A program made the position numbers and the translations under genes. Positions 1 to 57,698 of a DNA stretch of 64,000 nt are shown piece by piece (position 1 is the first letter of the stretch; the number at the start of each line of letters is the position of its first letter). The notes under the pieces are model-generated. The model made no database searches. It was given only the letters and a program-made list of their open reading frames with translations, and was not told where the DNA came from. The DNA is taken from NCBI RefSeq assembly GCF_021134715.1, contig NC_060025.1, positions 3,348,001 to 3,412,000 of the forward strand. The letters are read 5' to 3'. The DNA is from Daphnia pulex. Its lineage: Eukaryota > Arthropoda > Branchiopoda > Diplostraca > Daphniidae.

Positions 1-3000
1 ATCGGACGGGATTGTCGTCGCGTGGCGCCACCTGACGGTAGAATTGACAACCATTTTGTTTGACGACCCCCGAGGGATTTGAATGAAACCGAAAAAACCC
101 CAAGGAAATGGCAAATGAAGATTAAGAAAAGGAAAAAATATTTAAAAAAATTATTAACATTTTGGACTCGTTTGCTCCTGTGCTCTTATTCCGTCGAGCT
201 GTTGAATTGAAGGCGCACGCACTCGAAAACCCCTTAATTGGATTACATTCAAATAATGTCGTCGTGCGGGTTCCGCACTGTGTAGAATAGATCAATAGAG
301 AAGTGGGAGGGAAGGGGGGATTTCGGAAATGAGGGTGATCGGTCGTTCGATCGTAGTGATTCTTTGGGTGGGATTTTTGCTGCTTATAGCGAACCCATTA
401 CCAATGCAAACCAAATGCGGAAAAAAAAGTAATACGGGTCGGTCAAGTGACGGCCGAGTTTGTTTGTAATCGAACGCCGCGGTCCGTGACACAATTCAGC
501 GCCAGTTGTCTTTCTTTTCTTCTTTTATTATTATTTGATTTTATTGGGAGTCTTCAAATAATCGCAGGAGGACAGGAGGGGCTATTGTTTTCTTTTCTTT
601 TATCATCATTATTATTATTATCCGACCGATATTGCACCACGAACCGATTTTTAATGATTGTGTTTGTTCGCGGAAAAAAATGGGATGCGTGTCTGAGTGT
701 GGCATAGATTTGTTTCTCATTCACGCGGGACTGTAGTGGCCAGTGAGTCACGAAAAGAGGAAGGAATTGACGTCATCCATTTGGTCTTGACGGCAAGCAT
801 GAAAAAAATATTTCATTCCATTTTGTGTTGGGGGACATCCGTACCATCCATACACCACCCCGCATCACCAGAGCCAAATGAGTCACAAACAATCTGTTTT
901 ATAGTACTACGTAATATAAGACAATCGTTGTAGTAATGGCGGTGGCGTAATCCAGACTCATTTAGCCGGATGTCATGGTATTTCCGATGTTATCCCGGAT
1001 CCGGACCCTTTTGTTCCTTTTTTTCTTTTCCCAGCTCTTTTATCTCGCCATCTCTACATACACACAAGTCGATTTGTACATGTGGAAAAGATGGCCATCG
1101 AAAGAAACCTTTTTTTTTCTGTATAAGAAGAATAAGACTGGAAGAAGTAGAGAAAAATACTTTTCTTCGTCGACTTCTTTTGTGTTTGGTCCGCCCCTCC
1201 AATCCGCCCCAGGTGTGACGAGTTCAACGCTTTCGAATGGGGCGGACCCATCCAGCCAGCCAGCTCTCCATACTATACCTCCAGCTTGGGAAACATAACA
1301 CAGGCACGAGCATACACTACACACACGTCTGAGAAGTAGATATATCCCTTGCGTCAAGAAGGATTACGATCTAACGGGAATGCCTTGTAAGAAAAAAAAA
1401 ACCTCTCCCGGGAAACGATGATGATGGCAAATATTCAAAAGAAAAATTTGACAACAACAACAACAATCGAACGTTTTATTTATTTAATACGCCAATCCCG
1501 TTTCTCCGCAAACAACAACAACTGTCACCGGATGAAATATTGTCTAAAGAACCAGAGAGAAAAACATCCGCAACGGTACTCACTATCCATCCAAGATTTT
1601 ATTTTTCGCCCCGTCAAAAATCTAAAAATCTAAAAAAAAATGAAAAGACGTTTGACTTTGGCATGCAGCGATTTGTGATTGGCGCTGACCATTTTTTTTT
1701 TCTCTCTCCCCCCTTCTCATTCCCTCTCTCTCTCTCCTTCCTTCCATCCGGAGTAAGTTTGTGTGTATACAACACGACACGACCGAGCAGCAGCAGCGGA
1801 GTCAAGAGAGAACAGACAAAAACATTGGGTTGGAAGGTGGAGTTGGAAAAGAGGAGAATGGAAGAGAGTCGAAAGAGGAGAGATGGGTTTTATACACTTT
1901 TTCCCTGAGCCAGAGAGAGAACAGAACAGAACCGAACAGAAAAGGCAAAACCTTCCACAGTCATTGACCAAGTTGCTGGCGAACCAGCAGCTTACCAGAC
2001 TCTCTTTTCGTGGTGTTGGTTGCAAGTGCGCCTGTGTCTCTCTGTCTGTGTGAGTGCTCGTGTGTGTGTGTGTTCGTGTCGTTTTCTTTGAGCTGCGAAA
2101 CTGCACAAGTGAAACATTCGCCATGGGCTAAAGAACAACACCAAAAAATGAACGACCAAATCTTTCGCTTCCGTTTCAACAGTGTCTAGTGCCTGACTTT
2201 GAAGGAGTTTATTTGCGTTTTCAATTTCATTTTTTTTTATTTCTTCTTGAAATTCAATTATCGCTTAATTTTTGGAGTTTGATTCGAAGAAATCAAAAGG
2301 TAAGAAGAGCGTAGGTGGATTGAATAACAACAGCAGAGGGAATGAAATTAGAATTTACCGAGAAAATCATTTTGTCGAGGCTTTGTTTGAGAGTCCCCAG
2401 GTAAAATAAAGGTGTGTTTTGTGTGTGTGTGTTTGGCTGTTTTGAAAGTCGACCGCTAGGTGCAACAACAATTTCCCCTTCTCTCTCTCTCTCTCTTTAG
2501 CTGGTCCCGTGTGTGTGTGTGTGTGTGTCTCGGTAATCTCTACAGGTGGGTTTGGTTTCAAAGTCGACGAGAGACTTTTTGGAAGAAGGAAAAGGTTGCA
2601 CAACACAAATAGTCGCACACACACACACCAACTCCCCCGCGTTGCTCTCTCTCTCCCCCAACCAAAAAAATTTCATTCCAAAAATGAGCTGCTGCAGGAA
2701 GAACGAAAAGGAATGTTTATTTATATTCCAACCCAAAGTCGAGTGTGAGGGAATTGTTATGCCAATCAAAAAATGATAAAGAAGTTGTAGCAGCAGCAGC
2801 AGTAGTAGTAGCAGTAGAGAGAAGGATAGAAAAAAAAAAGAGAAATGTTTAGTATGTCCTAGAAACATGCTTTGGAAAACAATTGACGATCGTGAACTCT
2901 CTCGCCGCCCAGTCACGTTATTATATCTTGTGCAAAAAGAAGAAAAGGAAAGGCGAATTAAAATACCAATTTCACCGTTTTTTCTCTCTCTCTCTCACTC

Positions 3001-4239
3001 GCTTCTCCCAATGTGTGTAATCGTCGGTGTTAGTCTGCAGCCATGCGAATCATCGGCAGCGCGTGAGAATGTCATTTTTTTCTTTTTACCCTCAAGTTTC
3101 GTTCAAATCTAAAAAAATGTTGTTAATCGTTAAAGAAGAAGTTTTTTTTTTTTCAAAAATAAAACCTTCCCCCCGAAATAGACAAAATGAAAAGAGAGAA
3201 GACGAAACAACTTTCTAATCTTTTCTCTTCGTTCGTTCATTTTTTTGTTGTCCCGTTGGTTTCGACCTTGCGGCTGCGTCGTCTGCGCCGTATAGTTCAC
3301 ATCCGCTTTCCTCGTCCAACGGAACCAGATTAGCACGGCGAAATATAGCCGCACCACCATTTACTACCCCAAAAAGAAAATGTCGATTGGAATTGACACG
3401 GAATTGTTGATTGAGGTCGGGTTAAATGTTTTTATTTTTGATGGGGGGGGATTTTCCTTTTATTTTTCCATGGCCGTCACCTTGGGCAGATGTTTTGCAA
3501 GATACCGAATTTGAAACTCTCTCGACATCTGTCATCAAGGCCCCTTCATATTCTCCGTAATGGCCCCTCCCACCGGCTTTTGTTATTCGCTATCAACTGA
3601 ATTAACGAAAAATAAAATGAAAAAAGTAGTGCAAGGTTCCCTAGATCGCTTTCCAGTTGTTGTTGTTTTTTTGGTCGAAGGTTTTTTCAATTCTCCCTAC
3701 GACATTGTTTCTCCGTTGGCTCGGCTCTTTTTCTACCCCCCTTTGCCCAGGAGAAAACGTTTGGCCTCTCTCTTCCTGGGCACCTCAAACATTCGTGAGT
3801 CACGAAGTCAGAACGGCCGTGCGGTGGTGGCGGCGGCGGTGGGAGATTTATTATGATATTCTCTCTCTTCTCTATTTTTCTTTCCAACAGATATAGTCGG
3901 TGGCAGGCCGTTGAAAAGTTCGGGGGCTACGATGATGAGTGTGAGCCGTCACGTCCGTCCGTACGTGTCCGCCACGACGCATTTTCGAACCCCCATTTAC
4001 TCTCCTGTCTCGGTTGTTTCCTATTTGCCTTTCGTGTGTGTGTTTTTGGGAAGAGGGGGGAGTTCGTGTGAAGGAAAAATATTCGACAAGGAGGAGGAGA
4101 ATTTTTTGAGTTTTTTTTTGTTTTGTTTTCCGAACAAAAGATCCGTTCGGACACGGTCGGCCACTTTCGCCACGTCGACGTGAAACCCAAGAAGAAGAAG
4201 AAGAAACAACTTTTCTCTCTCTCTCTCTCTCCCCTTCAG
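1..4239 (+). other. Upstream non-coding region of the GCK-III kinase
   Basis: No coding region is supported here. The stretch is full of simple sequence: CT runs near 1703-1740 and 2480-2498, a GT/TG run near 2508-2528, CA runs, and A and T homopolymers. A candidate 5' untranslated exon ends at 2299 with a good donor (aag, then gtaaga). A strong polypyrimidine tract ending in cag at 4239 is a likely acceptor for the exon that carries the kinase start codon. The linkage of these two sites by one long intron is inference. Confidence 0.45.
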
Positions 4240-4585
4240 GTCCGTTTGTTTTGTTGGAGCCAACAAGCGAAGCGATCGCTTTGAGCGGTTAATTTTTAAT
4301 GATCGCCAAGGGAAAATGAGCGAGCAATCATCCAGAAAACGGACATTACACACACACCACACAGTACGACGAACCCCCCCACCGTGTAGTCAATTCATTC
4401 GATAATAACTGTTTGAAGGGAAATTCAATTTCATTCCATCTGCGGATGGTCTAAACCAAAAAATAATAATAAGAAAACCAATTGGTAATTGTTTCTCAAT
4501 TATTTTGAATCCAAGAAGAAATCTCTTGGAGAGGGGTGGGGTGAGGAGTCGTATGGACTGGCGGCGGCCGTGAGTGAGTTGAGAC

Positions 4586-8047
<3,462 letters not shown>

Positions 8048-45938: not shown

Positions 45939-47239
45939 ATGGCACTTCCCATTAAGATCGTTCGTCATTGCAGCCTCATTGCGGTAAGTTGTGAATTCAT
46001 TAGGTATTTGCATTCGACTGTATTTTTTATTTTATGTTTTATGTTTTTTAATTTTATGTTTCCAATTGTATCAGGTGTTGGTGTTAATTGTTATTGCCTT
46101 CGGCGAGACGAATGGAGCGAGTATTTTGGTCGATTTGAAAGAACCCAAAGTTGAAACGGCCACCAACAAAACAGACCCCATTACTAAACATGGCGGAATC
46201 ACCGAAGAGAAATTAGATCCTCGTATGTTAGGTTAGTAATACTGTGACATGTTTATCTCGTCTATCTCATGTTGCACTATTGAATGGCAGAATTTGAATA
46301 TTTATTATACTTTTAAAAGGTGGCTCTGGATATTCTGGATATGGTGGACAAGAATCAGCATATGGCGCTTATTCAATGCCTGGTGGATCCAACTACGGGT
46401 CCGTTTATTCCGGGAATTATGGCAGTGGTTCTCCTTCGTACCCTTCCGGTCCTCATGCAGAAGCCTACAACACCGGAACATCCTACGGATCAGCTTATGG
46501 TGCAGCTACTCAAAGTCCTTTTTACAGCACTGCATACGGATCTGGATCTTATGGCGCCTCTGCTTATGGGTCAGCATCCTATGGCGTCACACCTGCATCT
46601 GCTTATGGGTCAGGATCTTATGGCGTCACACCTGCATCTGCTTATGGGTCAGGATCTTATGGTGTCAAACCTGCACCAGCTTATGGGTCAGGCTCTTATG
46701 GCGTTACACCTGCACCTGCTTATGGACCGTCAGGAGCTTACGCTGGATCGGCTTATGGCAACGCGGATTCTTCCTATGGCGCTTCATCTTATGGCGCTTC
46801 ATCTTATGGCGCTTATCCAACTCCTTACGGCAACATGGGTAGCCCAACCTATGGAGCAGGATCGTCTTACTCAGGATCGTTTTATGGTGCTACTCCGCAA
46901 TACGGCAACATGGGGTCCAATTATGGCGTCACTCAGTCACCCTATGGCGCTAGTAATATGTTCGGCTCTTATGGAAACTACGGAGCTGCTGGATATGGTG
47001 CCGGAAGCTACGCTGGATACGGAGCCGGAAGTTTTGGTGGATACAGCGGAGTTGGCAGCAGTTATGGTGTTACTTCATCTCCCTACGCTTCTTATGGCGG
47101 AGCCTTTTACGGACAAAACAACAATATGTACAACGGAATGTCCAACGGAGTATACGGAGGTTCCAGTTCCTATTCAAATGGTGCAGGTTACATGGGAAAT
47201 AGGTATCCTTTTGGTTACGGCAATAATGTGGCATACTAA
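45939..47239 (+). CDS. Secreted Gly/Tyr/Ser-rich structural-type protein
   Basis: Three exons: 45939-45983, 46075-46231, 46320-47239; 373 aa. The first two exons encode a signal peptide (MALPIKIVRHCSLIA then VLVLIVIAFGETNG) and a short acidic/basic stretch. The third is low-complexity: YGS, YGA and YG repeats, including four near-perfect 14-residue units of the type YGSGSYGVTPASA (about 46545-46730). Gly-Tyr-rich secreted proteins of this kind are typical of arthropod cuticle, eggshell and silk-like materials; no chitin-binding R&R motif is visible. The gene is divergent from the PAYY-repeat gene, the start codons being about 530 bp apart. A poly(A) signal follows at 47344. Two other frames of the third exon are open only because of the repeat. 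Confidence 0.87.
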
Positions 47240-47349: not shown

Positions 47350-48066
47350 ATGTTCCAGATGAGTAAACCTTAAATTTCACTCAAATGTCAACATTTGTTT
47401 GAATTAAACAATGGCCGCGGTAGAGCCTTGTGATCTGTAAAGGAGAGATTTCCATATTAGTAAACTCTTATGATAGATAGTGTTTGTCAATTTCGAAAGT
47501 ATGGTTGTCGTTGGGGAGCTGAGCTAGTCCGAGGACATATCGTTGATTTCCACTTATTCCAGCTAGAAGAGAATTAAGTCCTTGAGATGCAAATTTTCAC
47601 TCCTTAAATAGGCAAGCGTATGTGCTTGGGAGATTCACTGGGGTCAAGTTTTCTTTCTCTTGTTAATATTCACTAACGAACTAACGGCTAAATTTTCATG
47701 CAGTATATTTGACAAACTATCTTTAAAACTAAAAGTTTGCGATATTTAAATTTTCATGTAATTGTTATAACTAACACTGCGAATTGAATTTTACGCCATA
47801 GTGTGTACGAGTGTGTACGTGATATACACGCTGGCACGCCTGTCAGTCTAAACCAGTCTGTGCGATCGTGACTAGCCAAACAGGTTGATTTGACACACTT
47901 CTCATGTTTATTGGCGGGATTAATCCAGGTTCCATGCTGTGTGGTATGAAGAAGAAGGCAGTGCAATAGAGATTCGTCCTTCTACACTTATCCCGATAAC
48001 CCCATTACTTTCGCTCAAAAGTCTATCAGGGCAACCCCCTCCAATCCCTGACCGTTTTGGATTTGG
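47350..48066. other. Spacer without recognised gene
   Basis: I saw no gene here. The right end leads into the core promoter of the next small secreted-protein gene. Confidence 0.45.
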
Positions 48067-48103
48067 TATAAAATTAATTAAACAACTCCGCTAGAGTATC
48101 AGT
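48067..48103 (+). promoter_or_regulatory. Core promoter of the 129-aa secreted gene (TATA + initiator)
   Basis: TATAAAA at 48067-48073 and TCAGT at 48099-48103, the same layout as the two neighbouring structural-type genes. Confidence 0.75.
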
Positions 48104-48140
48104 CGTGAACTGCACTCGAGCCAATTCTAATCCCTTCGCC

Positions 48141-48657
48141 ATGAAGGTATAATTGTTAACACAATTTTAGCTGGAAAACTAACTTTTAATCTTTTTGATA
48201 TTTTAGCTCGTTGTTTTCGTAATTTTGCTGGCCGTCTCTGCGGTTTTAGCTTATTCCGAATCCAAACCAACTTATAAAATTGCTCTCTCCGAATACTCAG
48301 TTGACTCCAAAACTCCAGCTGTTTCTGAGTCAAATGAAGATGTGAGTCTCCAGTGTGTACGCCAGACAATTGTTTTAATTTTAATCTTTTCAAAACTTTG
48401 ATTTCCAGTCCGATGAAGATGACAGCAGTGATGAAGAGAAAACCTATAATGTCAAGCCCACAGTTGCTTCTTACAATGCACTGGTTTCTAACTATGGTAG
48501 AACGTTTGATGAGCCAAAATACTTGACTACCTACTCAACTCCATACGCTCCAACTGTGCAAGTAGCTCCTACTGCAGCTCCCGCATACAAAGCTCCGGTT
48601 CCTTTCTACGATCGCCCTACTCTTTTACCGTATTGGTTACGCCCAAGAACTTATTGA
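48141..48657 (+). CDS. Small secreted protein, acidic then Pro/Tyr-rich
   Basis: Three exons: 48141-48146 (Met-Lys only), 48207-48341, 48409-48657; 129 aa. The signal peptide reads MKLVVFVILLAVSAVLAY. The middle is very acidic (SNEDSDEDDSSDEEK), and the C-terminal part is Pro/Ala/Tyr-rich with YSTPYAPT and TAAPAYKAP, ending in a basic-aromatic RPRTY. The minute first exon and TATA/TCAGT promoter resemble the PAYY-repeat gene nearby. The acidic run could bind calcium, as in proteins of calcified cuticle, but this is a guess. Function unknown. Confidence 0.82.
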
Positions 48658-49948
48658 AACAAACTTACTAAATCAAATTATACTAATATTGGAATTTATC
48701 GAAATATATTTATTTAATTGAAATCAAGATCGACAGGATCCAATTCTAGCTGTGCTATTTCATTTCAGATATAAGTGAATATAAGGCTGTTGCTATAAAA
48801 GTGGTTAAACGAGTTTTGCTTTTGTAGCACATCTGGAAAGTGCCCCCATGTATTATTGTTGATTTCGGGCTCGGTATATGCATGAATAAATTTTCTGGCG
48901 ATCGTCACTGCTGATAATCTCAAATGAAAGTGCTTTAAAACTGCCAATCCCCGTACACCTTAATGGCACCCATTTTCTTCCACGAAAAACTATTTGACAA
49001 TTGCGTGTAAGTAAACCTATTTATAGTTCTCGTTCCACGGGTTTTCAATAGCGCGTGGTTAGGTGAGCTAAACTGGTTTTCTCAATTCTTTTCTCCAAGA
49101 CATTTTACACCTGTGACTTAAGTCACATTGAAGGGACATAATTTGCGACGTTATGCCTAGTGGATTTAGATTAAGCTATTAATTTCAGATCAATTGGACA
49201 TTGCTTGTGTTTAAACAACTGGGCTAGACGTCTGAAAACTCCGAATAGATTTGAGGACTGACCGACGGTTCCATTATTAGTTTTCTTGCCTGTCTGTGAT
49301 GACAAACTGGAAATGACAGAATGACAGGCAAACTTATAACCAACTTCTCAAATAGGAAAAGGGGTCTAACAATAACTTATTAACTTGGCGTTCTTATGAT
49401 GACGGCTGAACACCCTTAATTGACCCTCGACAGCGATGCAAAGGGATAATTTCGTCTCATAATTTGACTTGACTTGACGGTTTCGTTCACTTTGTTCCAA
49501 ACAAAACAGGGTGCTTGAAATCGGGTTAATTTTGTTAATAGAAAACTTTCAAACTGATGGTAAAAACGCGCGTTGATACCAATACCAATATATTCTGTAG
49601 GAGAAAATGTAAATTATTTAAAAATCAGGTGTCATTGTGCCAGATGAAGATTGAAAAAGAAATTATAATTTTAAGAAACACATTTTTAAATATTAGAGTG
49701 ATCTTAACAATTTACATATTCCAATTTTGACCATTTACTTCTTGCATAAAAAGAATACGTAAAAAAACTCATGTCGTCTGCTAACGATAAACATTAAACA
49801 GTAAAACAGTTACCATGCGGCCAGATCGTGTATGGATGCACAAAGACACATGGGCTGACAGACATTTTAGAACTGCTTCTGTATAACCAAATATTTCATT
49901 CTTATTCCTGAATTTGTATCAACAACGTTGTGATTGGGAAATAGTCCA
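48658..49948. other. Spacer without recognised gene
   Basis: About 1.3 kb, A/T-rich. Only short open frames without start context or motifs were seen. Confidence 0.45.
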
Positions 49949-52192
49949 ATGTCAAAAATGAATAGAGAGCCCCCTAAAAATGTGTACAGCAATAACAGAC
50001 TTAGGAAAATTGCACCTGCTGCAGATCATAGCACTACAAGTCGATCGTCTCATCATCAGCATACTTCTGCTCCCGACAACAGCGGTGTGAGGGTACTAAA
50101 TAATACATTTCTTTGTTTAGTTGGTTGTTCTAGAATGATCTCATACAAATTTTAGATCAGCAACAAACCTCGGGAAACAAAAGTTGACAGATCTCTACAT
50201 TTCAACAAAACCCAATCAAAATATCAAAAACATTTTGAGCCCAATTCACCAACTAAAACTTTGGTAAGTTTCGTCACTTAACAGTTCAAGTTATAAACAA
50301 ATTCAACATTTTGTTTTGTTTCATTAAAGGGTGAGTTAAAGGCTCCCAAAAGGGTAAATGAAGGTCCTGTTATGAGGCAGTCTCTACTCGACTTGAAACA
50401 TCCATCTCGTCCAGTAACTTTTAAATGTTCACAATAAAAGTTCAACTACTAACTTTAATTCTACAGGGAGATTTGGGTATTCCACTTGCACACAGTTATG
50501 TCCAAAGAAAGGTTTCCAATAATACACAATCCCATCATCAACCAACTGACAAAAAGCCAAGGAAAAATTTTGACTATTTAGAACAACAAAGTTCTTCCTT
50601 TGGGGTGAAACGTGGTCGACTGCATTCAGATAATCCCTCCGTTTGGAGTCCGTTTCAAGGTAAATAAAAGGATTTTGTCGTTTTTTTTTAAAATCATAAT
50701 CTTTTTAACAAGCGATCCACGATTCAAGTAGACCGAAATCATGGAGGGGCTTTCCAGATCTAAATCCGGAAAAGGCCTTAAAAATATAAAAAAAATATAG
50801 GGATGTTTGTCTTCGCACGCCGGATTTACCTGCGTTTGCAGAATTACAAAATTCCCACCCGTTTAGGAGTTATTTAGCTCTAAAGTTTGGGTTTTTTGAA
50901 TTTTGTCAGAAAGTGGGGGGGCTTTGACATCCATTTTCGGAAAAGCGGGGGAGCTAGGGAAAAAACTAATTTTTTCAAAAGGTTTATTGCATACTCAACC
51001 ACCGAAATCCAAAAGGAATTTCCTTTCCGGATTTTATTGGTTGAGATATGACTGATTTAGTGAAAGGATAATTTAGCTGGTTTCCCTCCCTGGCTTGCAG
51101 CCATTTTTTCGTACGGTCCGCTGCGCTCCTGGCGGAAGCCAGCAGAAGGTCTTATACATCGGCCAATAAGAAATCTGGGTTAACTATATATGAAGGCCTG
51201 TATAAATGCAATGGGTCTAATGTGAAGGCCGATATATAAGACCTTCTGCTGGCTTCCGCCAGGAGCGCAGCGGACCGTACGAAAAAATGGCTGCAAGCCA
51301 GGGAGGGAAACCAGCTAAATTATCCTTTCACTAAATCAGTCATATCTCAACCAATAAAATCCGGAAAGGAAATTCCTTTTGGATTTCGGTGGTTGAGTAT
51401 GCAATAAACCTTTTGAAAAAATTAGTTTTTTCCCTAGCTCCCCCGCTTTTCCGAAAATGGATGTCAAAGCCCCCCCACTTTCTGACAAAATTCAAAAAAC
51501 CCAAACTTTAGAGCTAAATAACTCCTAAACGGGTGGGAATTTTGTAATTCTGCAAACGCAGGTAAATCCGGCGTGCGAAGACAAACATCCCTATATTTTT
51601 TTTATATTTTTAAGGCCTTTTCCGGATTTAGATCTGGAAAGCCCCTCCATGATTTCGGTCTACTTGAATCGTGGATCGCTTGTTAAAATAGGAATATTAA
51701 AATTCGTTGAAAATAATTTTTAATCGTTTTATGTCGATTCTCTGGAGAGTCGAGCGAACTGAAAACACCGCTACCTTTGAACAAGATGACCTCGAACTTT
51801 GTGGCGACAGCACACTCATCAGCGGCACCTGCTGCTCATCGTTTCAAATCTAATTTTACACCTCGACAATTCCTGCCCCGTTTTCAACGAGGATTAGGAA
51901 TGAGCAGTAACGGCAGTGTCCCATTGGCATCCGATACAGTTTCGTCTAAAGGTAACCGTTTTAGATTTCATTTAGCTTATTTGCCCTGAGTGATTTGTTT
52001 TCAATTCCGAATGAAGGGTCATTGGAGGGAAATCTTTCTTTGAGCCAACATCACTACAAGGACTACCCAGAAGATAAATCCGAGTCATTTGATTCCCGAC
52101 TACCCATGTCCAATCGAGATAAGCAGCCTTATTACCCTCAGTACTATTCATGGTCGCATTTTCAAGATCATTCAAACAACAGGCCTTTCTAA
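49949..52192 (+). CDS. Uncharacterised basic, disordered protein
   Basis: Six exons: 49949-50086, 50156-50263, 50330-50413, 50467-50659, 51748-51951, 52017-52192; 300 aa. All junctions keep one frame with GT..AG ends, which is the main evidence that it is real. The protein lacks a signal peptide and membrane segments. It is rich in Ser, Asn, Gln, Lys and Arg, with short islands of possible linear motifs (HFEPNSPTKT, DYLEQQSSSFGVKRGR, SDNPSVWSPFQ, FTPRQFLPRFQRG, YYPQYYSWSHF). SPTK is a possible proline-directed phosphorylation site. I do not recognise the family. Its intron 4 (50660-51747) is expanded by a 984-bp palindrome. ATG 49949 is the first in-frame start; a second Met follows three codons later. 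Confidence 0.68.
50704..51687. repeat. 984-bp near-perfect palindrome (foldback element) inside an intron
   Basis: Arms of 461 bp (50704-51164 and 51227-51687) are reverse complements without any length difference and with almost no mismatches; I noted one, 51157 against 51234. The central spacer is 62 bp (51165-51226). Both outer ends carry TTAA (50705-50708 and 51683-51686) followed by CAAGCG inward. No open frame of note is inside. It is probably a non-autonomous foldback transposon or a recently formed inverted duplication. Transcribed from the host gene it would form a long hairpin. Confidence 0.93.
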
Positions 52193-54209
52193 TGTTCGTA
52201 GTAGATATTTTCAAACGAAACGCTTCTAAATTTGAAGTACATTTTCCTTTTTTTTTTTCCTTTTTCTTTCCTTTTTTTGTGTTGATAATCAAATTCTTTT
52301 TAGAGACAGTTTTCATGTTTTAAACCTTGTTTGACATTAGGGTGAAGAACGTTTCGAATTTTCTTTTTTGTTGAAAACAGCAAAATACAAACCACCGGTC
52401 GATTGTAATCCAAATCCAAATTCAGTAAAATTTAAAGTGAAAAGTAACGGGGGATGGCGGTTTTCGAATGGACTGATAATCGTTGTTGATTGTGTGTTTT
52501 ATCAAGTGTATTTAGAACAAAACTCTCACGGTCCCTTTGGACCTTTTGCGCTGGCCTTAACTGATTTACCCCATTTCGTGTCCTGCCATGTAGTAGGCAG
52601 TACATCAACGCCAACCACTTCAAACTCGGCCTCGATGCGCTCCACTTACCCAACTACCTAGACCCTTGAATTCCGACATAGTGAACTAAGTTTGGAGATG
52701 AACTACATTGATTAATACGTTCCACACATTGAGGATAGCCGATATATTATCGATAAATCTAAGCTTTGATGTCCCTAACTTTTTCAACAGATCTATTCTT
52801 TTCGGTGGGTGGCCAACCTAATAGGATCGCGTAAAAGTAATGCATGTTTTATGCGGTCGCGAATCGATTTGCTTGCGTGTGTGCCTTGGACTAGATTGTC
52901 ACAGTGAGCGTCGAAGCAATGAAGGCGCCTTTATTGTTCAGTCGTACGGGTCGAATTCCGCAAGCGTGACAACGAATTCCAATGTGAACTTGCTAATCAA
53001 ATTAGCAATGGTTCCATGAGAATCAGCGTACCTCCGACAATGTGGGCCGCTGAATTCGTTCTTAATAATAAGAACGCGGGACGGAACCAGCAAGCAGCCG
53101 CATTGCTCGGCAAATGGAATTCATGCAATATGAGTTGACCTAGAAAATGCTATTCAAGAGTACATTTTCCATGTCCGTTCAATCTGTTGAACTATCATAA
53201 AGGTTTCGAGTCGGAAATTTGAACAAACGATCGATCCGCATTCACTTTCGCCGTCTTTTCACCTTCTTTTATTGAATATACTTCGATTCACTTTGCCGTC
53301 GTCTTCCTACGTGTACTGCTTCCATTTCCATTATTGTTTTCTCCTTTTTTTCCCCCGACCTTTTGCACGATGACATTTGCCTGCACCGACATCCGAAAAA
53401 TTCCGCTGCTGGTTTGCTTCTGTTTGCCTAGTGACTACTGACTTCCGATGGTCTACGCGATGTTTCCCCCAATAGTGATAATAGATTTAAAGACTACATA
53501 GAAAGTCTGTCTGTATTGATTTGGTTTCCAAGAAATTCAATGTTGGAATACCAAGTTTGAAATATCAATTTGCGATCTATGCCATATTCAACGACGTATG
53601 ACATTATTAACACAAGAGTTAACAGACGTATTGCGTGTTAGTCTGAGAGCACCCCTCCTTTTAAATTCGTTATTCAAATCCCTGCTATTGATATAAATTT
53701 TGGTGTCGTAAATAGACGATGGAAAGGATAGATGCGTCAATAATCGACTCAAGTTAGGTCTTCTGAAAGTCACCAAGTTTTGATCTGATATATCTCAATT
53801 TGTAATTGACAGTCGTGATTTATGTGTAAAGTGGCAAACAGATCCCAAAGTTGTAAAAGTACAAGTTCCGGTTGGCTTTAATTTACGAACCTTCACATGG
53901 AAACAATTTCACACGGATGTACCGATGCGCGCGCAACATCTCCCGTGCTTGGAGGATTCTTCAACTTCCGCCTCTTCCTCCTTCCGTAAAGAATCATTAA
54001 CCCACGGTCGGGAAGTTTGACTGGCAGACTCCAGTGTCGAGCCGCCAACGGCTGATCGACCCCATGGTGGCGGGATTGGTTCTGGTGCCTTTACGGGACC
54101 GAATATCAACCAAAGTGATTACTCCATTTTCTTATTTTTATGTTGGAAGAATTTTTAGCGAGTGTTGTGCGAATCTCGTAGGAAAATAAAATAAAACTGA
54201 TAAACCAAT
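52193..54209. other. Spacer upstream of the first opsin
   Basis: I saw no supported gene here. An open frame at 52368-52661 (+) lacks splice or domain support. The stretch should contain the opsin promoter; a short hairpin (CGTTCTT and AAGAACG) lies near 53058-53077. Confidence 0.4.
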
Positions 54210-57200
54210 ATGACAAGTAGCAACGACAGTGCTGGGTATTTGTGGACGATCAACGCCACCACCTGGATTATCGATGACAGCAACGAGACGCTGGGCATCG
54301 ATTGGGACGATTGGGACGTGTCGCTGTGGACGCCGGAGCAGCGCCAACTTCTGGAACATGGCGGGATCCCGCGCCAAGTTCACGTCGCCCTTGGCGTCCT
54401 CCTCAGTTTCATTGTCCTCTTCGGTTTCGCCGCCAATTCCACCATCCTTTACGTCTTCTCCAGGTACTCGTCATTTTTTTCCTCGATTAAATGATGGACG
54501 CTCATTCTCAGATTGTGAATCGCAGGTTCAAACGGCTGAGGACGCCGGCCAACGTGTTCATCATCAACTTGACCATCTGCGATTTCCTCGCCTGTTGTCT
54601 CCACCCACTGGCCGTCTACTCCGCATTCAGGGGCCGCTGGTCTTTCGGCCAAACAGGTAGGAGTTACTACAGACCTATTGAATTTACAAAGATCTTATTA
54701 ATATAATTCAATAGAATAAGAGCCTGTTAAAAGCTATTTTTTAAAGTTACCTTGACCCCCCCCCCTCCCTCCAGTTAACTTAGTCCTTAAGGTGAAAAGT
54801 ATTGAGCCCCATTTTAGTATTCCTTTTGTAAAGTCAGTAAGCAAAGAAGGAATATAAATATAAGATGTCAAGGAGTAAAAGTGCTGATGTGTAGTGAACT
54901 AGAACTAGTTAGACGTTTATGAAATTGAAAAGTCCCTGGCCTAGGTGGATGCAACTCTTATTGAAAAGCTTGGCAAGCTGTAAACTGGCGCAAATGGCGA
55001 GAAGGAAAATAAGTGCTGAGAGTGTTGATTTCAAATGACGAATATGGCATCCCTTAAAAGCGAGAGCCACTTGACTCATCGATCCTCGTAGACGGAATCC
55101 TTGTTTCCTCCCTTTGCCCCCCTATCCCTGCCAAAGAGTCAAGATCTTAGACGAGTAATGAGGAACTGGATGTTGCGTTCAACAATGGAAAACATCTCCG
55201 AAACGCCAGCCGAATAAAACAACTTATGAGATATCTCTGATGCATTCAGTAAGGAGTAACTTTACGTTATTCTTCAACTCTTGAAGTGATAAGATTTAGG
55301 TTCACTCCCAAGAACTTGGCGTCAAAGCTGTTGAAAAATCCTTAGAGAGCCCATCATCCGACCTTGTTATTAACAAATAAAGAAACGGCGGTAGATCCCT
55401 GAGCACTGGTCTTCCCCTCCTATATGAGGAGCCTTGCGTATGAAAAACTTGGCATTTAAGTACGCTTCCGGCTCCATCCATTATTCCGCCATCGTCGTGT
55501 CTGGTGGTCTGGTGCTGCTCTGCTCCTGTCAGCTAAATATTACACAATGCAGTGGGTGGAGGATAAGAGGACATGCGACACGAGTCCAGGCTGGCTGACC
55601 CATAGAACCCCCGACGTCTTACATAATTAAGCAAATATTTTATTAAGACAAGTGTATCCGGTGAATCTCTATGACTTCGTTTAATTTTGATGCTATTAAT
55701 CAACCCAGCACGGTTAAATGTCATCGAGTAAGGTTTCTCAAGTTTTCGGGATCTCACAAGACCAAAGAACGATAGGGCACACAGCCACACATACATGTTG
55801 AAAAGGTGCAAATGCATCTGGCCACACGCCGAGATGCATCTCATGTGAAAGCGACCAGCTTTTTCGTTCCTCGTGCCCTTTTGCGTAAAGATTCGAGCAC
55901 GGATTTCACTGATGGATCGATGGGAGCTCAGTTTCAAAAGTTTCCATTTCATCGGCCCACACGCCCTTTATTTTACTCCTTAGAAAAGGATGGATGAATA
56001 ATCTGTAGGAAGACAAAGAGTGAATGACACTTGGGAGGTGTGGCAATCAGGAGATGCCATTCACTACGTTGATCATTTGTAATTGAAAATGCAATCGACG
56101 AGAAACGGGTTTTCGTTTTATTCCAGCGCTTTTTTTTCTTCAAATTAACAACCAACTTTTGTTTTGACTCCGCTGGAGTAAATACCAAGGCTATGAAATA
56201 AAGATAAGTTCACGTACTGTGCATAATAATACCCTAATTTTTTCATACTGTAGGTTGTAACTGGTATGGAATGGGCGTCGCCTTCTTCGGACTCAACAGC
56301 ATCGTGACCCTGTCAGCCATCGCTTGTGAGCGGTACATTGTCATCACGTCTAGCAGCTGCCGGCCGGTTGTTGCCAAGTGGCGGATTACGCGTCGACAAG
56401 CGCAAAAGGTGAAACAGTTCATTACCTTTCATTCGTCGTCAATAGAAATTTGGTTGATGCAGGTTTGTGCTGGAATTTGGCTCCATTGCGCCGCCCTGGT
56501 CTCCCCGCCTTTACTTTTTGGATGGTCCTCCTACCTGCCGGAAGGAGTTCTAGTCACCTGCTCATGGGATTACACTTCACGAACGCTGTCCAATCGGCTC
56601 TACTACTTTTACCTCTTGTTCTTCGGATTCTTCTTGCCCGTTTCCGTTTTGACGTTTTGCTATGCGGCCATTTTCCGGTTCATCCTGCGCTCGTCCAAGG
56701 AGATCACCCGTCTAATTATGACGAGCGACGGCACGACATCTTTCAGCAAATCTACCGTATCCTTCCGTAAAAGGCGGAGGCAGACGGACGTCCGGACGGC
56801 GCTGATCATTCTGTCGCTGGCCATTCTTTGCTTCACGGCCTGGACGCCGTACACCATTGTCAGTCTCATCGGCCAATTCGGCCCAGTCGACGAGGATGGC
56901 GAGTTGAAGCTCTCACCCATGGTGACCTCCATCCCGGCATTTCTGGCCAAAACTGCCATCGTTTTCGATCCGTTGGTCTACGGATTCTCCAGCCCTCAGT
57001 TCCGGAATTCCGTCCGCCAAATTCTCCGCCAGCAAAGTATTTCCAGCAGTGGCAACGCCGGTAATCGTGCCGGACCAAACAACATGGCAATGACTAGGAC
57101 GGCGATCCAGAATTCGCGTGCAAGTTCACGCGCCACCGTCTCGTCTTTCAGTCGCAATGCCCGGATGTTTCCAAAGGATCCGCTCTCCAAAAAGATGTCA

Positions 57201-57698
57201 AACGATCCTTCCGTTTCAACGCCGCTGGCTGTACAGCAGATCCCACAATTCCGTCTTCCAACTGACGTGGACATCAATGAGCAGCAATTTCGCCGAGGTA
57301 TTTATGCAAATGAATCTGTGTCTTACTGGATCGATATTATCGTGTTATTACAATTAGGTGAGAATTTGAGAAAGTCTTGCATGAAGCAGAAGAACAGCTT
57401 TAAAATTCCGGCCGGAAGCATTCCGCAGAAAAATAAATTGAGCAACAGCCGTTGTTCTCTGCTGGAGGACGTGTCAACGCATTCGCTGGCACTGCGGCAG
57501 ATGATCTTCCGGAAAGAGGACGAGTTATATTTATTCCATCACCAACCATCCCACAATGCTGAGCTTGCAGCCAACAAAATGGATCACCAGGGGAATAATA
57601 AACGGATCCGTCGACGTTTTTCGGAAGCAGATATGATGCGCCGATCTGGAAAATGCCGGAAGAATCTTCTTCCAGTGAGCACATCCTTCGACCAGTGA
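54210..57698 (+). CDS. Opsin, arthropsin-like, copy A
   Basis: Five exons: 54210-54463, 54526-54656, 56254-56408, 56463-57297, 57358-57698; 571 aa. Seven membrane segments are visible. Key residues by alignment to bovine rhodopsin: TM2 Asp (NLTICD), Cys110 and Cys187 equivalents at 130 and 213, and Tyr at 133 in place of Glu113. Glu207 matches Glu181, the usual invertebrate counterion. CERY stands for E/DRY, FTAWTPY is in TM6, and retinal-binding Lys is 343. The NPxxY motif reads DPLVY, and the following SPQ stands where r-opsins have HPK. The N-terminus has an unusual WDDWD/LWTPEQRQLL block, and the tail after TM7 is over 200 residues and basic. It is a G-protein-coupled light sensor; the arthropsin label is probable, not proven. 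The 54- and 60-nt introns at 56409 and 57298 have no stop and could be misread as exon. Confidence 0.9.

Follow-up and report, generated by a model that had tools for sequence, protein, structure and literature searches.

The window analyzed here is a 64,000-nucleotide stretch of the Daphnia pulex genome (G000:C9:3348001-3412000; assembly of 133,188,837 bases in 13 contigs). The only inverted repeat of 20 nt or more within 49000-53500 has arms (50703-51164 and 51227-51688) that are separated by 62 nt and, by direct count, are complementary at 461 of 462 positions. The palindrome at 50703-51688 is real and has one mismatch, as an earlier note on this DNA had also counted. That note gave the palindrome as 984 bp (50704-51687); a palindrome is present there, but the span takes in the target-site duplications and a chance match between the flanks. 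The features of the locus are listed in Table 1.

Table 1. Coordinates of the palindromic element and its parts in the window
Feature	Position	Strand
Probable host-gene intron with the insert, placed by eye (GT at 50660, AG close to 51749)	50660..51749	+
TTAA target-site duplication, left	50705..50708	.
Palindromic non-autonomous transposon of subfamily A, 974 bp, CAAGCG...CGCTTG	50709..51682	.
Left arm as placed in the window; by spacer sense, the family's "arm 2"	50709..51164	+
62-nt loop (spacer); the minus strand reads as the sequence adjoining the left repeat of the C3 element L060	51165..51226	-
Right arm as placed in the window; the family's "arm 1"	51227..51682	-
Sole mismatch between the arms, opposite 51234 and 8 nt away from the loop; polarity identical in 20/20 A and B palindromes	51157..51157	.
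TTAA target-site duplication, right	51683..51686	.

Folded as RNA, the 986-nt palindrome reaches -897.5 kcal/mol, compared with a mean of -261 (SD, 7.9) for 20 shuffled sequences. Because this fold lies far below the shuffles and near-identical palindromes are found elsewhere in the genome, the palindrome is not a product of chance. Each arm additionally has its own imperfect inverted repeat of ~55 nt at about arm positions 288-348 (e.g., L060:1288-1343 in the C3 element).

The probable intron would be about 0.1 kb long without the insert. Three frames of the host gene (50425-50667, 51717-51989, and 51965-52192) had no Pfam match at E values up to 0.01. A transcript across the insert could form dsRNA, and a hairpin-RNA role is physically plausible. 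That this is a functional long-hairpin RNA locus, kept for the host gene as an siRNA source or editing substrate, we nevertheless consider extremely unlikely. In its favor are a predicted transcript stem of ~460 bp and the position of the insert between plausible splice sites; against it, an Rfam scan of 48000-54000 at the gathering threshold gave no match, and the structure follows from a transposon anatomy that is repeated at other sites. Inserts of this kind put break-prone hairpins, which could form dsRNA, into genes of a model organism.

Two neighboring features are recorded here. Downstream, a gene on the + strand at 54204-57698 includes a frame (56238-57698) that matches the rhodopsin-type receptor family PF00001 (E value, 1.4e-24) and looks opsin-like by eye. 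At 46298-47239, an open frame of 313 aa that is rich in glycine/tyrosine/serine/alanine repeats and has no Pfam match perhaps encodes a cuticle protein or another structural protein.

A TTAA family and its probable autonomous partner

With one arm as the query, we found at least 71 matches in the genome (40 of 200 candidate places were scored). The exact string of TTAA plus terminus, TTAACAAGCGATCC, occurs 115 times genome-wide (62 forward and 53 reverse), while the reversed control string occurs once (1 + 0). Both ends with TTAA on both sides were present in 29 of the 51 loci scanned (L009-L059); in L023 one end has decayed, and the remaining loci scanned show one end or none. Two arm matches of at least 400 nt were present in 27 of 69 loci examined, namely the window copy, nine further palindromes of its subfamily (A), 10 B palindromes, 6 C palindromes, and L060. 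The subfamilies were delimited from a tree together with the identity of each copy to the window arm; the mean arm difference is 6.7 to 7.5% between A and B and 14.1 to 14.6% between A and C. The palindrome in the window is one transposon copy of a mobile family.

These counts also bear on the suspicion that inverted reads were joined into a false palindrome. Palindromes are difficult to assemble; however, neither the two long arms at 27 loci, nor the TTAA on both sides amid unrelated flanks at 29 loci, nor an arm 1/arm 2 mismatch of one polarity in 20 of 20 palindromes (see below) fits such an artefact, and on this indirect evidence we give it next to no credence. The earlier note had proposed a foldback-type mobile element inserted at TTAA and had asked for other copies in the genome; the ends, the TTAA duplications, and the copies bear this out, and its interpretation as a whole is partly supported, with the mobile foldback type, the TTAA, and recency or conversion as the parts that stood. 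Viral contigs contained no sequence that exactly matched a 21-base pattern of the terminus, and in a literature search of mostly open-access papers, the family was not found among the matches listed.

L060 is a 6,480-bp element on C3 (G000:C3:270550-277029) that has the ends of the palindrome and TTAA outside both arms. Its arms are identical at 447 of 447 positions and lie 5,585 nt apart. On the minus strand, it contains open frames of 110, 689, 107, and 360 aa, with a plausible splice donor and acceptor (by eye) between the 689- and 107-aa frames. The genome has a single whole match to the 689-aa frame; the other 36 of its 37 matches are partial, and 28 of those have stops. Motifs of its C-terminal part recur among the 36 partial matches, and L081, the overlapping loci L082/L085, and L084 retain altered forms of LDYKMKFEP, LQSDNASCYQN, and GKSVLDAHFA, which we infer to be catalytic motifs of DDE type. 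Pfam contained no family for the four frames at E values up to 1, PDB sequences gave no match for the 689-aa frame at E values up to 1, and the one NCBIfam line for three L060 frames, a class D beta-lactamase that scored 15.4 bits where the cut-off is 250, is noise. Six peptide patterns from the 689-aa frame had no match in viral contigs. L060 is likely the autonomous partner of the palindromes and a candidate source of their transposase; that the link consists of common ends and sequence alone counts against the overall reading given below. The interior of L060 also contains a direct duplication of 132 nt, 98% identical, at 1970-2259.

In the left-end sense of L060, the A/B palindrome consists of the left 522 bp of L060 joined to its reverse-complemented left 462 bp, whereas L060's own right repeat ends at 448 bp. 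The interior of L060 beside its right repeat occurs in none of the two-armed palindromes compared; among the compared loci, it is present only in L044, L046, and L047, where position 514 on the left is joined to 5967-5970 on the right and which are ordinary deletion derivatives. Because the inverted repeat extends beyond 448 bp and the right interior of L060 is absent, the palindromes represent inverted duplications of the left end, and an origin by simple internal deletion of L060 is ruled out.

The family has the features of foldback elements or palindromic MITEs: it is non-coding, consists mainly of long inverted repeats, is present in many copies with a target duplication, and has a candidate autonomous element with matching ends in L060 (TTAA, 689-aa frame). 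We compared it with published descriptions of known elements; the sources consulted also included PMC10294476 and PMC5199201. Tetris of Drosophila virilis is likewise a non-autonomous DNA transposon made up mostly of long inverted repeats; as described there, it has target duplications of 8 to 10 bp, tandem repeats in the arms, and no known partner (PMC4079207), whereas the palindrome here has TTAA and a simple stem closed by a 62-nt loop, and its own genome holds a probable partner. piggyBac elements and their MITEs, including Pokey and mPok of Daphnia, resemble the family in the TTAA duplication and in the occurrence of MITEs beside autonomous elements (PMC4912750, PMC2872659). They differ in their termini, given as CC[C/T]T (PMC2872659) versus CA...TG (CAAGCG) here, and Pokey has terminal repeats of 12 to 16 bp (PMC4912750) versus arms of ~456 bp. 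The earlier note's remark that these are not piggyBac termini thus holds, and Pfam, at E values up to 1, found no piggyBac transposase domain in the four L060 frames. Kolobok elements also duplicate TTAA (PMC9587614, PMC6004289), but their ends are given as RR...YY (PMC9587614), and the THAP domain that is described as usual, although not universal, in Kolobok (PMC6004289) was not found by Pfam in the L060 frames. The termini fit neither piggyBac nor Kolobok. Sola3 elements have a TTAA target duplication, as does the family here.

Divergence between arms, mosaic copies, and broken copies

The mismatch 8 nt from the loop is a T in arm 1 and a C in arm 2 in all 20 A and B palindromes; a pattern check on the raw sequences matched 19 of the 20, the exception being L027. 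In 12 orientable one-armed or deleted copies, the base at this site fits the arm that was kept (L031 is not orientable and is outside the 12). Since A and B both have this mismatch, they trace to one ancestral palindrome, and the parts farther out have been homogenized since. Judged by this pattern, the mismatch in the window is inherited from the family ancestor and is not a new mutation.

Within single elements of subfamily A, arm 1 and arm 2 differ by a mean of 1.37%, compared with 2.73% for the same arm and 2.94% for opposite arms of different elements; the corresponding values in B are 1.26, 2.11, and 2.34%. When arm partners were shuffled, which leaves the relatedness among elements in place, the observed within-element mean was reached in 0 of 20,000 shuffles in A and in 0 of 20,000 in B. 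Between A and B, arm 1 differs from arm 1 (7.12%) about as much as from arm 2 (6.84%). A comparison of 6 A-core with 10 B palindromes yields 16 strictly fixed substitutions, every one of which affects both arms, with no case limited to a single arm; when the A set is widened to all 10 palindromes, 10 strictly fixed A/B sites are left. In three of the 20 palindromes (the window copy, L013, and L024), the inherited difference is the sole one between the arms. These data suggest that the near-identity of the arms does not reflect youth only and that one arm is now and then re-copied from the other. The earlier note had offered very recent origin or arm-to-arm gene conversion, and both seem to apply.

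The homogenization is less pronounced beside the loop. The ratio of within-element to same-arm divergence is 1.04 at 1 to 30 nt from the loop (mismatch site excluded) and 0.25 to 0.66 farther out, and arm differences common to at least two palindromes occur at 3 of 30 inner versus 6 of 432 outer sites (Fisher P = 0.016), an excess that involves few sites and small inner numbers. The 6 outer sites with an arm difference indicate that homogenization is incomplete. In the tree, the two arms are sisters in just 7 of 27 pairs (L010, L012, L013, L015, L020, L048, and L060), a count that speaks against the overall reading given below and for which bootstrap is not settled; L015, L020, and L060 have starred support, and both L060 arms lie at the end of a common branch of 0.029.

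In subfamily C, the arms cluster by arm type and not by element in the tree, except for L028/L029. For the inner half-arms of L052, L053, L054, and L061, the within-element difference equals that of opposite arms across elements (8.81% each), while the same arm differs by 1.49%; for their outer half-arms, the within-element difference is 2.44% versus 3.47% for the same arm and 3.58% for opposite arms. The 13 fixed arm 1/arm 2 substitutions are confined to the innermost 217 nt. L028 and L029 have an arm 1 that is of arm 2 type at the outer 10 diagnostic columns and of arm 1 type at the inner 16, and L030 has the same pattern in its arm 1 with one column unclear. In the C cases resolved here, it is the outer part that is homogenized, and it reaches the terminus. 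The shuffle test in C is weak (54 of 20,000 shuffles, and 814 of 20,000 without L028/L029), with within-element values still slightly lower.

Among the copies fetched, 22 have one nearly full arm, the loop, and part of the other arm. In 17 of the 22, the remaining stub is at most 30 nt long (7 of 9 in A/B and 10 of 13 in C and older copies; binomial P of about 3e-16 if breaks were uniform), and the stubs usually end 4 to 30 nt beyond the loop. Stub lengths are from local alignments, and stubs of 4 to 5 nt may be partly due to chance. No two of the 40-nt continuations past the stubs of the 22 copies match at 22 or more positions in ungapped comparison. Outside the 22 are L041, which is broken within the loop; L031, from which the loop has been deleted; L044-L047; L059 and L072, which are rearranged; seven loci with little beyond the terminus; and the loci that end within the sole kept arm (L064, L065 twice, L075, L076, and L079); as the last group indicates, breaks are not always close to the loop.

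Candidate mechanism, alternatives, and related repeats

Palindromic MITEs and foldback elements raise the questions of how they originate and what keeps their arms so similar. The genome studied here combines a probable autonomous parent, palindromes of differing age, an inherited marker mismatch, mosaic arms, and remains of broken copies, so that fold-back copying, in-place correction, and mere youth lead to distinct predictions that can be checked. The reading we favor, and hold to be somewhat better than evenly supported, is that of a TTAA MITE probably moved by a transposase of L060 type, which arose by inverted duplication of the left end and the arms of which would be episodically re-copied by fold-back; the window copy would then be a young insertion in an intron. 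In this scheme, a palindrome would break just past the loop. The broken end could be joined to other DNA, in which case the arm would be lost; alternatively, the stub could fold back on the remaining arm such that its 3' end pairs and primes re-copying to the terminus, which would restore a near-perfect palindrome. Such re-copying would probably take place now and then only, on excised or replicating copies, because extension in the chromosome should duplicate the flank too and because the inserted copies L014, L022, and L023 retain one-arm changes. Fold-back priming predicts the short stubs, the less homogenized zone on the loop side, and the tracts extending to the terminus that are described above.

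Two yeast systems offer partial parallels. In Mre11- or Sae2-deficient cells, inverted repeats of 5 to 9 bp with spacers of 3 to 12 bp can drive palindromic duplication (PMC7999016), and template switching homogenizes short inverted repeats (PMC8604942). As in the scheme above, one arm is copied from the other and short inverted repeats prime fold-back (PMC8604942, PMC7999016); the yeast cases, however, concern short repeats and chromosomal duplications, whereas the process here is inferred for arms of ~460 bp across a mobile family. The 62-nt loop, compared with the 3- to 12-nt spacers of the yeast fold-back cases (PMC7999016), counts against fold-back, as do the identical arms of L060, which across 5.6 kb a stub and a short loop cannot fully explain. 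The L060 arms indicate that homogenization without a short loop is possible, and a second route may exist.

If each subfamily had recently been founded by a perfect palindrome, little time would have passed for the arms to diverge, and the window copy, L013, and L024, which differ between arms just at the inherited site, look as expected. Yet A and B have the junction mismatch by descent while all their fixed A-core/B differences are in both arms, and the L060 arms have accumulated their common 0.029 branch with zero difference between them. Mere youth as the whole story is rejected by the within-element divergence together with the 16 two-arm fixed differences; we regard it as highly improbable, although it may account for the most recent step in individual copies. 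A similarly poor prospect is that each subfamily was made afresh by inverted duplication of the left end of a contemporary autonomous element. The palindromes are indeed inverted left ends, and the loop edges differ in C and in the L056 type, but these edges could stem from small deletions beside the loop, and the identical 62-nt loop and common T/C mismatch establish one origin for A and B, for which fresh formation was rejected on that mismatch.

Better placed than these, although in our judgment rather unlikely, is in-place correction, in which template switching or gene conversion (by cruciform or quasipalindrome correction) would keep the two arms of an already inserted copy alike, with no tie to stubs or transposition. 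It would account for arms that evolve in concert, has a precedent in the yeast template switching cited above, and also serves the far-apart arms of L060. Against it, inserted copies have uncorrected private one-arm bases (6 in L014, 8 in L022, and 5 in L023), C retained divergent inner half-arms through several transpositions, and the tracts reach the outer end in resolved cases. Within the fold-back reading, a further proposal is more tentative and, in our view, possible rather than probable: a self-restoring transposon, in which a stub of 4 to 30 nt would re-prime the lost arm, so that the element could erase arm mutations, regrow from a half-copy, and be reborn from one end of its partner.

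Other repeats were observed near or beside the family. In L068, L069, L070, L073, L074, L077, and L078, the exact terminus TTAACAAGCGATCC is present near position 2001 with at most ~33 nt of further arm similarity, and these loci perhaps represent other families with common ends. At L033:1890-1906, a partial terminus, GGCGAATCGCTTG followed by TTAA, lies ~370 nt beyond a one-armed copy and is perhaps the end of a related family. Finally, near family copies on C2, L064 contains a larger inverted repeat (2771-4835 and 5925-8001) with 96% identity over ~2.1 kb.
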